A stretch of 64,000 nt of DNA from the NCBI GenBank assembly GCA_951812755.1, contig OX638329.1, positions 3,232,522 to 3,296,521 of the forward strand, read 5' to 3'. How positions within the stretch are numbered: position 1 is the stretch's first letter; each line of letters opens with the position of its first letter. Made by a program: the position numbers and the translations under genes. The notes under the pieces were generated by a model that saw nothing but the letters and a program-made list of their open reading frames with translations, had not been told where the DNA came from and ran no database searches. Source of the stretch: an uncultured Latescibacterota bacterium (GTDB lineage: Bacteria; Latescibacterota; UBA2968). Positions 29,595 through 34,884 of this stretch are shown here, one piece after another.

Positions 29595-29711
29595 ATGAAT
29601 GATCAGGTCAGCATGACGGTTCTGGTGATCGATGACGATGCACATATTCGGTCTTCGATAGGGAAGTTCCTCCCAAAATGCCCTGTGTTCTTCAGGGCAT
29701 TTTTTGTGTGA
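29595..29711 (+). pseudogene. Response-regulator remnant (receiver N-terminus only)
   Basis: The 38-codon frame begins with a receiver-domain start: M-T-V-L-V-I-D-D-D-A-H-I-R-S-S-I-G-K-F-L, with the acidic D-D-D cluster. It then runs through a terminator hairpin (29675-29705) to a TGA. A G-rich site (agggggaaat) precedes the ATG. The rest of the receiver, including the phosphorylation aspartate, is gone. It is probably the stump of an NtrC-like or other two-component regulator gene left by a deletion, since sigma-54 control elements lie just downstream. Confidence 0.68.
29675..29705 (+). terminator. Rho-independent terminator
   Basis: AAAATGCCCTG (29675-29685) pairs perfectly with CAGGGCATTTTT (29693-29704) around a 7-base loop and continues into a T run. 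It sits inside the 3' part of the response-regulator stump, so that stump is transcribed, if at all, as a short RNA. Confidence 0.85.
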
Positions 29712-29750: not shown

Positions 29751-29787
29751 TGTTTCAAATGAAACACCAACTGTTTCATTTGAAACA
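29751..29787. promoter_or_regulatory. Two palindromic enhancer-like boxes (TGTTTCAnnTGAAACA)
   Basis: TGTTTCAAATGAAACA (29751-29766) and TGTTTCATTTGAAACA (29772-29787) are each palindromic apart from the centre. Their centres are 21 bases apart, two helical turns, so dimers would bind one face of the DNA. They lie about 100 bases upstream of a sigma-54 promoter, the usual place for sites of NtrC-type activators. Confidence 0.72.
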
Positions 29788-29864
29788 CTTTTCCGCATGT
29801 CCTTTTTTGGGCATTTTTTAAAAACATGCTCTCCTGCAAGCAGTTACGGATTTTTTGGAAATTT

Positions 29865-29880
29865 TGGCACGCTTTTTGCA
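29865..29880 (+). promoter_or_regulatory. Sigma-54 (RpoN) promoter
   Basis: TGGCACGCTTTTTGCA matches the -24/-12 consensus TGGCACRN4TTGCW at every fixed position, with GG (29866) and GC (29878) exactly 12 bases apart. Transcription would start near 29890, 50 bases upstream of the recombinase-like ATG. Confidence 0.88.
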
Positions 29881-29939
29881 CCATATAAAGGGCACGAGAT
29901 CAAAATTTTCAGTTCTAACCCATACAGGAGGGCATTCCC

Positions 29940-30536
29940 ATGGTTCACCAGTCACTCGTAACTCGTCCAGCAGTACCATCCCATAAAGTCCCATCGCAGA
30001 AGCTCCCCAAAGCGCTCGCGCAAGACGAGCTTGAAGCACTCAAATCCGTACGCATGAACCCACGCGATCGCGCGCTGATCGCCGTTCTCTCGATGTGTGG
30101 TTTGTGCGTTTCCGAAGCGTGTTCGCTCACAATTGACAATATCCACTGGTCAACGGATACGCCGAGCTTTCGCTTTACCTGCAAGCGCGGCAAAGAGCGC
30201 GTTGTCCCGATGAACCCCGAGGTGCAAGACGTACTCCGCGAGTGGCTGGAGTCCCGTCAGTTTTCAGATTCTAAATATGTCTTTTGCAATCTCCGCAACG
30301 GACAGCGTCTCAGCCGCAAGACCGTTGTCAGGGACGTGTCCCACACCGGTGCGAGAGATCAGATCGATCTTACGTTCGCCGTGGTGCTGCTTTTGAGCAG
30401 TGCCGTCAGTTTCACTACCCGGGAGATTGAATTCAAATTTGCCCAAAAAAAGGAGATTTTGTGGTTTCAGCCCGTTTTAAGAGGTCTCTCGCAACGCATA
30501 AAAGATTTGTTAAGGCAAGAAGCAAGAGGTTTTTGA
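29940..30536 (+). pseudogene. Decayed tyrosine recombinase (XerC/D-like)
   Basis: The open frame of 198 codons starts with an AGGAGG site upstream. Residues about 24-140 match the catalytic domain of phage-integrase family recombinases: D-R-A-L-I-A-V-L-S-M-C-G-L-x-V-S-E-A, then G-K-E-R-V-V-P-M-N-P and Y-V-F-C-N-L-R. The box-I catalytic arginine of G-L-R-V-S-E is cysteine here. The homology stops near residue 140, before the H-x-L-R-H and tyrosine boxes. The remaining residues are unrelated. It cannot recombine DNA as is. It is the first frame behind the sigma-54 promoter. Confidence 0.75.
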
Positions 30537-30555: not shown

Positions 30556-30702
30556 ATGGCTTATCCGCCTGTTCACTACCTGAAACTGGGGCAAGTAGAG
30601 AGGGAACTGGCGGAAAAGCAGAAAGAGATCGAGGCTCTGAAACGCAAAAACGTGCGATTCAGGGGTGTGTTACGTATCCGTCTAATAGGAGACCAACTAT
30701 GA
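30556..30702 (+). CDS. Small coiled-coil protein of unknown function
   Basis: The product is 48 residues with GGAGG before the ATG. The sequence M-A-Y-P-P-V-H-Y-L-K-L-G-Q-V-E leads into a heptad-rich helix (R-E-L-A-E-K-Q-K-E-I-E-A-L-K-R-K). Its TGA overlaps the ATG of the membrane-fusion protein gene by 4 bases (ATGA), which argues that it is translated and coupled to that gene. No family recognised. Confidence 0.6.
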   Translation: MAYPPVHYLKLGQVERELAEKQKEIEALKRKNVRFRGVLRIRLIGDQL

Positions 30703-31427
30703 TATACAATGCGATGTTTCTGTGCGGTCTGTGCCTCATGCTCATTGCCGCAAGGGGCAATGCAGAAGAACTGATGTTGCGGGCACCTTTAGTACCTGCG
30801 CGATCGGCGACTGTCTATGCCGGGATGAACGCACGGATGCAGCAGGTCAATTTCGAGGTGGGAGACCGGGTGGTCAAAGGGGATACCCTCATGGTATTAA
30901 CCCGCCGGGATTTGCGCGTGAAGGAAGCTGCGGCTCGAATTGCACTGAAGAAAGCGCAGACTCTGCAAGTGCGGTTGGAAATGTTGCACGATAAGAAGCT
31001 GATCAGTGACCAGCAGCTCGAAAATGTCCGCTTTGATGCCGAGGTCGCACACTATAACTGGATCACCGCGCGTATGGAACTGGACAGAACCGCAATCATT
31101 GCGCCCCAGGACGGAATGGTGGTCGAGGTCAATGTGAAGGCAGGTGACTGGATACTGGCTTACTCCGCGGTCGCGCGGGTCATCGACCCCATGGATCTTC
31201 AGGCGTTTATGTTTGTGCCCGAGGGCAAACTGAACGCGATCCATAAGAATATGCCGCTGTCTGCCGTGCCGACCGCTGGCGGAAAGCGCGCGTTGCCCGG
31301 GCGCATTGTCGGGATCAGTCCTGTTATTGATCCGGAAAATGGGACGTGCAAAGTAACAGGTCTCTTTTTGAATGCGGGAAAATATGTCCGCCCCGGTGCC
31401 CTGGTCAACGTGACCATCGGGAGGTAA
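30699..31427 (+). CDS. Periplasmic adaptor (membrane fusion protein, HlyD/RND type)
   Basis: The product is 242 residues. After a signal segment (to about residue 23) comes a split lipoyl-like domain (V-G-D-R-V-V-K-G-D-T-L and later I-I-A-P-Q-D-G-M-V-V-E-V-N-V-K-A-G-D), a helical hairpin of about 50 residues with L-I-S-D-Q-Q-L, then a beta-barrel domain with V-R-P-G-A-L-V-N-V at the end. These proteins bridge inner-membrane pumps to TolC-type exit ducts. It is shorter than the usual 350-400 and no pump or duct gene is adjacent, so it may be an orphan. Confidence 0.82.
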   Translation: MIYNAMFLCGLCLMLIAARGNAEELMLRAPLVPARSATVYAGMNARMQQVNFEVGDRVVKGDTLMVLTRRDLRVKEAAARIALKKAQTLQVRLEMLHDKKLISDQQLENVRFDAEVAHYNWITARMELDRTAIIAPQDGMVVEVNVKAGDWILAYSAVARVIDPMDLQAFMFVPEGKLNAIHKNMPLSAVPTAGGKRALPGRIVGISPVIDPENGTCKVTGLFLNAGKYVRPGALVNVTIGR

Positions 31428-31510: not shown

Positions 31511-32302
31511 ATGCAGAGAGTAATCAAAAGTATTTTTGTAGTCGTCTTATTGGGATTTTTCACGGGTACATCCGCTCAAGTTTCACAGGAGAAAATGGCT
31601 TCTTTTAAGTCACCGGAGATGGTGGTGATTCCTGCGGGAAGTTTTAAGATGGGTTGCGTCTCTAGGAAAAGTTGCACCAACGCCGAGAGGCCAGTACACG
31701 AGGTGACGCTTGAGTCGTTCGCGCTGTCGAAGTACGAGGTGACATTTGAGGAGTACGATCTCTTCACAGATGCGACGGGTCGCGAGCGGGCAGACGACAG
31801 AGGTTTTGGTCGGGGGCGGCGTCCCGTGATCAATATCACATGGGATGATGCGGTGGCGTACACGGAATGGCTATCGGAACAGACAGGGAAGAGCTATCGT
31901 TTGCCGAGCGAGGCAGAGTGGGAGTATGCGGCGCGCGCGGGAACGGTGACGAGGTATAGCTGGGGGGATAATCTTGGTCACAACCGCGCCAATTGCAATG
32001 GGTGTGGCAGTCAGTGGGATAATGAGATGTCAGCACCTGTGGGATCGTTCGAGGCCAATGGTTGGGGGCTTTACGACATGCACGGCAACGTGTGGGAATG
32101 GACTCAGGATTGTTATAATAATAGATATGTGGGCGCACCCAATGACGGGTCTGCATGGGAGGTCGGTGACTCTACAGCGCGCGTGGTGCGTGGCGGTGCA
32201 TGGTACCTGGAAGGATTTTTCCAGCGCTCAGCTGCTCGCGACCAACACAGGACCTTTGCCGGGAGCCTTTATGTCGGGTTTCGGGTTGCGCAGAGTTTAT
32301 AA
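31511..32302 (+). CDS. Exported formylglycine-generating-enzyme-like (SUMF1 domain) protein
   Basis: From the ATG at 31511 the product is 263 residues, with AGGAGA 7 bases before it and a signal peptide (V-V-V-L-L-G-F-F-T-G-T-S-A). Typical SUMF1-fold text follows: M-V-V-I-P-A-G-S-F-K-M-G, then S-K-Y-E-V-T, Y-R-L-P-S-E-A-E-W-E-Y-A-A-R, Y-D-M-H-G-N-V-W-E-W and V-V-R-G-G-A-W. Most bacterial proteins of this fold are not sulfatase activators. The upstream open frame from 31346 overlaps the adaptor gene and is rejected. Confidence 0.88.
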   Translation: MQRVIKSIFVVVLLGFFTGTSAQVSQEKMASFKSPEMVVIPAGSFKMGCVSRKSCTNAERPVHEVTLESFALSKYEVTFEEYDLFTDATGRERADDRGFGRGRRPVINITWDDAVAYTEWLSEQTGKSYRLPSEAEWEYAARAGTVTRYSWGDNLGHNRANCNGCGSQWDNEMSAPVGSFEANGWGLYDMHGNVWEWTQDCYNNRYVGAPNDGSAWEVGDSTARVVRGGAWYLEGFFQRSAARDQHRTFAGSLYVGFRVAQSL

Positions 32303-32415: not shown

Positions 32416-32491
<76 letters not shown>

Positions 32492-32892: not shown

Positions 32893-34884
32893 ATGGCTCT
32901 TGATGCACAAAATATTCAGACGGAAGCAGACGATGCGAGTTTCCAACCCGCGGTAACATTGCGCGCTGTGGGATTGGGGCTATTTCTGGTCGTAGCCCTC
33001 GATCTGCTGGCTATTCTTGTGCGCTACATCTTGCACGCTCCGCTGATGACGTATAGCCATATCCCAATGGCCATGCTGATCATTTTGATGATTCTGATGA
33101 TCGGACTGGCCATTGTTGCCAAAATGACCGGCTGGGTGCTCTCAAAAGGCGAATGGCATGCGATTCTGGCGATGGGCCTCGTGGGCGCGGCCCTGCCGTG
33201 TTTTGGCCTGACGGGTTATTTGATCGGCTATATCACGGCACCTTATTATTTTGCTACGGAAGAAAATCAGTGGGCTGAGCATTTGCATCCGCTTTTGCCC
33301 AACTGGCTCTTGCCGAGTCACGAGGGCAATGCCGTTGCGTGGTTTTACGAAGGCTTGCCGAGCGGTGCAGAGATTCCATGGGACGTGTGGATATTGCCCT
33401 TGTTCTGGTGGACGACGGTTGTGGCGGCGGCTTTTTTAATGCTGGCCTGTGTAGCTACGGTTTTGAGAAAACAGTGGGTGCAAAACGAACGCCTGGTTTT
33501 TCCCGCGATGGCGCCGTTGATCGATATGGTTTCTGAACCGGGCGATGGCGAGGGATGGTTGCCCGAGTTTACGCGCAATCGCTTATTCTGGATCGGATTT
33601 GCCATTGCGTTTGGCGTGCTGGCCTGGAATTGCATCAATTACTTTGTGCCGGGCTTTCCGCGTTTTCCCATTTACCGGTCGCGCTGGTACTGGATTGATT
33701 GGCAAATGCCGCCTATCAGGGGATACTTTGGCATTTTTACCATACTTTTTTCTTATTTTGCCAGCCTGGATGTTCTGTTTTCAATCTGGTTTTTTGATTT
33801 GTTATTCATCTTTGAAGGCGGGCAGCTTACTAAGTGGGGCTATAAAGCCACCACGCCTTATTATCGCACGGGGGTGTATTACTGGCAGACTGTTGGGGCT
33901 TTTGTCGTTTTTGTGGGTTCGACATTCTGGGTAGCGAGAAAACATTTGCGCGATGTGTTGATGAAAGCACTCGGGAGAGATCCCACCGTGGATGATTCCG
34001 AGGAATTGATGTCTTATCGCGCCGCTTGTATCGGTTTGCTGGCCAGCATAGCGTATTTGTTTATCTGGCTGACGCAGATGAATTTCGATCCGATGAAAGG
34101 ATTTTTATACATTCTGGCAGTGATTTTTGTCTATACGGGTATGGCGAAGATCCTCGCCGATACCGGCATGCCATTTGCGAGCAAACCCATTGGTGCATGG
34201 AGTCTGGTCGCATCGTTTTATGGAAGGCGCAATATCTCGCTTTCCACCCTCGCCGCTTTTCGCTTTTCCGTGCTGATTACCGAGAATTTTAAGGGCTTGT
34301 TTTTGCCTGCGCTCGCCCATGCAGGGCGCGTGTCCGAGGGCGTTCCCGGCAATCAGCGGCGGCGGTTGATGGGGGCGCTTGGGCTGGTGTTTATGGTAAG
34401 TTTGCTATTCAATATGTTTTTCACTGTGTGGTTGGGGTACGACCAGGGGGCTTATAATTTCAACAGTTGGGAGATTACGCGGGCAGCCGAACGCCATTTT
34501 CAGAGCACGGTTGATGCGATCAAAAAACCCGATGAGCCGCCATTTTATGAGGAACATCCCGAACAAGCGGTGTTTTTGGGCATTGGCGGTCTGCTGATGG
34601 CCGGGTTGATCTATATGCGCTATCGCTTTGTGTGGTGGCCATTACATCCCGTGGGGTTGGCGATTTCGGGTTCTTATCTGGCCCGGCGCACCAGTTTTAC
34701 AACTTTTCTGGCGTGGTTGATTAAGTTTGTAATCATAAAAGTAGGTGGGCCAACGGTTTATCGCAAATCGAGACCCCTGTTCATCGGTTTGCTCGTCGGA
34801 TATATTCTCGGCGTGGCTTTGTCAGTGGGTATTGACATAATCTGGTTCCCAGAACGCGGTCATTGGGTACATCGCTATGGATAA
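32893..34884 (+). CDS. DUF6785-type polytopic membrane protein (663 aa)
   Basis: The protein has about 14 hydrophobic segments, beginning near residues 27-50, 58-82 and 92-115 and ending near 640. I recognise the overall pattern of the large membrane proteins named DUF6785 in Poribacteria/Latescibacteria-type genomes, with a distant likeness to oligopeptide (OPT) transporters: N-E-R-L-V-F-P-x-A and I-L-A-D-T-G-M-P-F. Function unknown. It overlaps the next gene by 8 bases, and the paralogous protein at 39.4 kb is two genes on. No good ribosome-binding site precedes the ATG, perhaps because the MITE replaced the upstream sequence. Confidence 0.7.
   Translation: MALDAQNIQTEADDASFQPAVTLRAVGLGLFLVVALDLLAILVRYILHAPLMTYSHIPMAMLIILMILMIGLAIVAKMTGWVLSKGEWHAILAMGLVGAALPCFGLTGYLIGYITAPYYFATEENQWAEHLHPLLPNWLLPSHEGNAVAWFYEGLPSGAEIPWDVWILPLFWWTTVVAAAFLMLACVATVLRKQWVQNERLVFPAMAPLIDMVSEPGDGEGWLPEFTRNRLFWIGFAIAFGVLAWNCINYFVPGFPRFPIYRSRWYWIDWQMPPIRGYFGIFTILFSYFASLDVLFSIWFFDLLFIFEGGQLTKWGYKATTPYYRTGVYYWQTVGAFVVFVGSTFWVARKHLRDVLMKALGRDPTVDDSEELMSYRAACIGLLASIAYLFIWLTQMNFDPMKGFLYILAVIFVYTGMAKILADTGMPFASKPIGAWSLVASFYGRRNISLSTLAAFRFSVLITENFKGLFLPALAHAGRVSEGVPGNQRRRLMGALGLVFMVSLLFNMFFTVWLGYDQGAYNFNSWEITRAAERHFQSTVDAIKKPDEPPFYEEHPEQAVFLGIGGLLMAGLIYMRYRFVWWPLHPVGLAISGSYLARRTSFTTFLAWLIKFVIIKVGGPTVYRKSRPLFIGLLVGYILGVALSVGIDIIWFPERGHWVHRYG

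Follow-up and report, generated by a model that had tools for sequence, protein, structure and literature searches.

In the PEP-CTERM PrsK/PrsR system, an NtrC-like response regulator with a Fis helix-turn-helix (HTH) is associated with dispersed promoters that share an activator motif upstream of a −24/−12 element; this motif 1 comprises 17 nt ending in TTTACA, has a spacer of 63 ± 11 nt, and is sometimes repeated (PMC1569441). The locus described here has the same general design, but its activator motif is a 16-nt palindrome in a 21-bp array at a fixed gap of 77 bp, and we noticed no kinase gene beside the activator. A PEP-CTERM system was considered for this locus because the activator matched the PrsR model (TIGR02915); however, the score of 418 bits was below the cut-off of 502.6, and the EpsH exosortase (TIGR02602) had no match in the genome. 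Like the enhancer-binding proteins of the AtoC/NtrC/NifA type, the activator contains a receiver domain, a sigma-54 interaction domain, and an HTH_8 domain, whereas it scored below the curated cut-offs of the AtoC, NtrC, NtrX, ZraR, GlrR, and NifA models, and its targets are neither nitrogen nor acetoacetate genes. The genes at the locus resemble pairs annotated as site-specific integrase and metal-dependent hydrolase on the plasmids pA5BP1 of Flavobacterium, pHALHY02 of Haliscomenobacter, and pTS of Spirosoma, in which a tyrosine recombinase is fused to the same membrane-tailed ATPase with YdjM adjoining. In contrast to our locus, these pairs have no convincing upstream sigma-54 site and no annotated adjoining adaptor, and their ATPase part is 24 to 32% identical to ours.

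The locus lies in a stretch of 64,000 nt (here referred to as the window; C1:3232522-3296521) of the single-contig 6.53-Mb genome G000. Two operators, TGTTTCAAATGAAACA at 29751-29766 and TGTTTCATTTGAAACA at 29772-29787, match TGTTTCAnnTGAAACA perfectly and start 21 bp from each other; their format, TGT-N10-ACA, is that of the NifA site. Separated from operator 2 by 77 bp, a perfect TGGCAC-N5-TTGC sigma-54 element (TGGCACGCTTTTTGCA) is located at 29865-29880 on the plus strand, with a predicted transcription start near 29890. By chance, 0.25 sites of the TGTTTCAnnTGAAACA type with up to two mismatches are expected in 64 kb and about 0.05 perfect −24/−12 elements per 64 kb and strand, and no perfect palindromes were observed in 60 Markov shuffles. 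Thus, the palindromes at 29751-29787 and the −24/−12 element exceed chance, and the coordinates, the spacing, and these tests agree with the initial annotation of a perfect −24/−12 promoter behind two palindromes that are two helical turns apart. The region has what characterizes a sigma-54 enhancer-controlled promoter, i.e., a −24(GG)/−12(GC) element whose spacing is conserved, activator sites that lie upstream of it at a constant distance, and an RpoN gene together with a matching enhancer-binding protein in the genome. Its upstream border is formed by a terminator-like hairpin with a T-run (AAATGCCCTGTGTTCTTCAGGGCATTTTTT; 29675-29706, plus strand), which was read from the sequence, is kept in most copies of the control region, and was not listed in a consensus scan.

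Using DNA searches, we found the control region at four places in G000 and at several loci in 10 of the 11 genomes of the genus (Candidatus Latescibacterota), while searches outside the genus returned no convincing match. We aligned 26 copies, i.e., that in the window and 25 further copies. One to three operators are present in each of 25 copies (58 operators in total), and neighboring operators are 21 bp apart without exception. The last operator is located 76 to 78 bp from the −24 element in every case, whatever the number of operators, and the −24/−12 element is kept wherever a copy still holds the promoter part; palindromes and promoter element are, therefore, both present at homologous loci, which favors the initial interpretation. 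The same change in both operator arms (TGTGTCATATGACACA) occurred more often than predicted for independent changes (Fisher P 0.014, for copies that are not independent of one another), as expected for a site bound by a dimer. The block TCTCCTGCAAGCAGTTACGG between operators and promoter (29830-29849) is near-invariant, with its first ten bases invariant in 23 copies of the alignment. We note that it is conserved more strongly than the operators and matches no recognized site.

The paired operator pattern, searched for in 21 genomes with up to three mismatches, did not occur outside the ten genomes that carry the control region and, judging by contig coordinates, was restricted to the loci of that region; the reversed control of this pattern was absent from all 21 genomes. 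Because the pattern occurs only at these loci, the regulon seems limited to this gene family. We consider it likely that it is a small regulon with two to five promoters per genome and specific to one Candidatus Latescibacterota genus. The complete genome G008 lacks the operators, the control region, the activator, the ATPase, YdjM, and the close adaptor together. The tree of control-region copies follows the loci in some parts and the genomes in others, a hint of exchange among the copies.

At the loci L055 (G009) and L062 (G004), an intact gene for an NtrC-type response regulator lies directly upstream of the control region. Aligned to the 470-aa regulator of L055, the window retains a stump of this gene at 29595-29711 on the plus strand, in which 26 native codons (MNDQVSMTVLVIDDDAHIRSSIGKFL) are followed by 12 codons into the terminator region and a stop at 29711, confirming the response-regulator stump initially annotated just upstream of the promoter. 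Orthologs of the activator with at least 79% identity are encoded by nine of the ten genomes with operators (G000 to G007 and G009; the copy in G001 is partial), while a close activator was not found in G010, a fragmented assembly of about 470 contigs. The paralog in G000 is intact, maps to C1:946224-947627 at a distance of 2.3 Mb from the window, and retains the recognition helix SRMVLRxRMKRxGL. With a receiver containing the phospho-Asp, an AAA+ domain containing the sigma-54 loop, and a Fis HTH, the activator belongs to the NtrC family. It scored below every listed curated equivalog cut-off, with AtoC and PrsR being nearest. Close relatives are encoded by Candidatus Latescibacterota metagenome-assembled genomes, and a broader scan of genome contigs returned only Latescibacterota orthologs at >80% identity followed by ordinary NtrC-type proteins at about 40%. 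In a comparison of copies from L055, L062, L063, L073, L074, L159, L211, and L212, the sigma-54 contact loop reads GAFTDA instead of GAFTGA in most copies, while that of the G000 paralog is GAFTGA. At a second locus (P), the neighbor of the activator is not a kinase but an ATPase-TPR protein; this protein of about 815 aa adjoins the activator, in a position where one might expect a sensor kinase, at L009, L063, L073, L074, L211, and L212.

A search of related genomes for an intact locus with the same palindromes identified L055, in which the activator and the control region are followed by genes for a 506-aa fusion protein (tyrosine recombinase-ATPase-membrane tail), YdjM, an HlyD-type adaptor, and a SUMF1 protein. 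Aligned to L055, the window differs by four clean deletions. The first (about 1.36 kb) removed the activator gene after codon 26 and has the 5-bp repeat TCCTC (29668-29672) at its junction; the second (about 0.94 kb) lies within the fusion gene, the third (about 1.0 kb) extends from the ATPase tail into YdjM, and the fourth (about 0.09 kb) is located ahead of the adaptor gene. Loss of the activator gene and most of the first two structural genes through deletion, as previously suggested, is supported by this alignment. Mobile-element traffic, which had also been suggested, is not, because the window departs from the intact locus by deletions only and contains no insertion relative to L055; the protein family does have plasmid-borne relatives. 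The broken first gene (29940-30536, plus strand) is a single open frame of 198 codons, since the reading frame stays open across two deletions. It comprises the shared leader, the N-terminal half of the tyrosine recombinase, and about 22 residues from the tail of the ATPase, joined in-frame to a C-terminal piece of YdjM. Hence, the frame described as a dead recombinase is indeed broken but combines remnants from two genes instead of being a recombinase alone. The small ORFs that follow it are YdjM remnants; one of them, of 48 aa (30556-30702, plus strand), is a C-terminal remnant with a stop codon that overlaps the adaptor start (ATGA).

The next two genes are not decayed. The adaptor gene (30699-31427, plus strand) encodes an intact 242-aa HlyD/RND-type periplasmic adaptor, of which the genome has no other close copy, and the following gene of the unit (31511-32302, plus strand) encodes a SUMF1/FGE-domain protein (PF03781) with a signal-peptide-like start. 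Pairwise dN/dS ratios, which average over the time before and after the deletions, were 0.15 to 0.29 for the adaptor and 0.06 to 0.22 for the SUMF1 protein, indicating purifying selection on both. The description of the genes behind the promoter as decayed, therefore, holds for the broken first frame and the YdjM remnants but not for these two genes. The broken 198-codon frame ahead of the adaptor gene could reduce translation of the adaptor. Because the adaptor scored 119 bits with the RND_mfp model (TIGR01730; cut-off, 94.9), we considered that the locus is a sigma-54-regulated drug or metal efflux locus from which the pump was deleted. However, an inner membrane pump and an outer membrane channel, as found in RND/HlyD (RND/MFP/OMF) tripartite efflux systems, are absent from the locus and from its intact relatives; no pump adjoins the adaptor at any intact or distant locus, and the constant neighbors are the ATPase and YdjM. 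We regard this explanation as very improbable. From the initial proposal of a sigma-54 regulator-efflux locus, we retain the sigma-54 control region and the NtrC-type activator but not efflux, as no intact locus contains a transporter gene.

The loss of the activator in cis and the destruction of two genes would fit a control region that was stranded in front of dead genes and is decaying neutrally. Other copies in G000 also point in this direction. Copy L010 is followed by a gene fragment of about 36 codons, and copy L072, which likewise leads into a truncated gene, has no operators, apparently due to a deletion between two GGCATTTTTT tracts; the regulon is shrinking, with decay in progress. 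By contrast, the operators and the −24/−12 element in the window are perfect, the paralogous activator is intact with the same recognition helix, and the adaptor is conserved as the only close copy. Moreover, G000 has an intact ATPase gene and an intact YdjM gene, which span C1:947704-949718 and lie together with the activator gene at C1:946-950 kb behind three operators, while its adaptor gene is in the window. G007 arrived at the same division, with the adaptor at the locus corresponding to the window and ATPase, YdjM, and activator at the other locus, through different deletions. In G010, the arrangement is reversed, as the adaptor gene follows the leader directly at the P locus while the fusion gene is found at the other. 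Each genome with operators has retained a close adaptor (one each and two in G004), one or more ATPase genes, and a match to YdjM, although in G003 the YdjM copies run into contig ends or contain a stop. Neutral decay of a stranded region is, therefore, unlikely in our view. The term stranded is probably wrong, because an activator and the partner genes persist at another place in the genome, behind the same operators, and the only close adaptor is under purifying selection, and the control region is probably not dead.

The simplest reading of these arrangements is that one activator acts in trans on parts that are dispersed over several loci. The control region in the window would be a working-type enhancer and sigma-54 promoter that still drives the adaptor gene and is activated in trans by the paralog, which we consider likely. 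The NtrC-family regulator would bind the phased array of 21-bp operators, loop, and hydrolyze ATP to open the sigma-54 polymerase held at −24/−12. The controlled genes would give rise to a membrane module of three parts, namely a P-loop ATPase whose C-terminus bears a membrane tail (often fused behind a tyrosine-recombinase domain), an inner membrane protein of the YdjM type, and a periplasmic adaptor of the HlyD type. The deletions in the window removed the activator encoded in cis and most of the recombinase-ATPase and YdjM genes, leaving a promoter that may still drive the only close adaptor copy of the genome, and the activator encoded at C1:946224-947627 would most likely switch this promoter along with the adjacent ATPase and YdjM genes. 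Operator binding, activation in trans, and assembly into one complex we infer from sequence comparisons. The operators of G010, in whose fragmented assembly no close activator was found, are a point against activation in trans.

Several features flank the unit. A MazE/PemK-type toxin-antitoxin pair (PF04014 and PF02452; 28775-29409, minus strand) adjoins the activator stump, and the same pair flanks the intact activator in L055. A tRNA-Phe gene (32416-32491, minus strand) forms the right end of the unit, with its 3′ end facing the unit, and G008 contains the tRNA-Phe region and the downstream genes without any part of the unit. For a 663-aa membrane protein encoded further downstream (32893-34884), G008 alone contains 34 relatives with E <1e-50. 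A tRNA-targeted island with flanking repeats was rejected, as a second copy of the tRNA-Phe 3′ end is absent from the window. Phage genomes gave no match that would point to a phage origin, and PADLOC gave no match to a defense system for five proteins.

The module extends beyond the genus. G031 and G039 share the gene order recombinase, ATPase, YdjM, adaptor, and G019 has ATPase, YdjM, and adaptor; all three genomes belong to other families of the class. At L204 (G031) and L207 (G039), a regulator gene and a −24/−12 site precede the module; the control region is not conserved at the DNA level in G031 and G039. At L204, L205, and L208 in these two genomes, genes for DnaC-like helicase loaders are found behind the operon; the contigs are short, and each genome has several copies of the operon. 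An ATPase with a membrane tail is also paired with YdjM on plasmids of Flavobacterium, Haliscomenobacter, Spirosoma, Methylobacter, Nitrosococcus, and Allochromatium. For the plasmid modules, the upstream DNA contained only two-mismatch matches to sigma-54 sites, which we took as chance. On the gammaproteobacterial plasmids, the ATPase is preceded by a secreted coiled-coil protein without a Pfam match (L219, 5277-5930; L220, 4451-5290; L221, 4910-5629), which by eye resembles outer-membrane channel hairpins. Intact copies of the recombinase domain retain the catalytic residues; many ATPase copies lack this domain, which is thus dispensable for the module.

These distributions bear on an alternative explanation, in which the repeated region would spread, together with its leader peptide, as a mobile regulatory or insertion element and the genes behind it would be chance passengers. 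The region and the leader MVHQSLVTRPAVPS precede different genes, including one for a CPBP/Rce1-type protease; relatives of the module occur on plasmids and beside the DnaC-like genes; and the unit ends beside the tRNA-Phe gene, where it is absent from G008. However, we identified no terminal repeats or target duplications, the window lacks a second copy of the tRNA 3′ end, and G031 and G039 have the same genes in the same order together with a sigma-54 site even though their control-region DNA is not conserved. We judge such an element to be quite unlikely.

We found no description of the ATPase-YdjM module, which is sometimes fused to a recombinase, in the literature searched. Given that plasmids of Bacteroidota and Gammaproteobacteria carry related ATPase-YdjM pairs, the module may have a role in DNA handling or in plasmid maintenance or exclusion. 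Tentatively, we suggest that the membrane-tailed ATPase, often fused to a recombinase, together with YdjM and the adaptor could form an undescribed envelope machine, possibly with such a role at the membrane, that was domesticated under a two-component sigma-54 regulon with its parts at separate loci.

From sequence alone, the analysis brings to attention an ATPase-YdjM module that recurs on plasmids of other phyla. It also presents a complete regulon of an uncultured phylum, with activator, operator array, promoter, and targets, that is ready for testing and in which an operon would have been split across the chromosome while the operator keeps its parts under one control.
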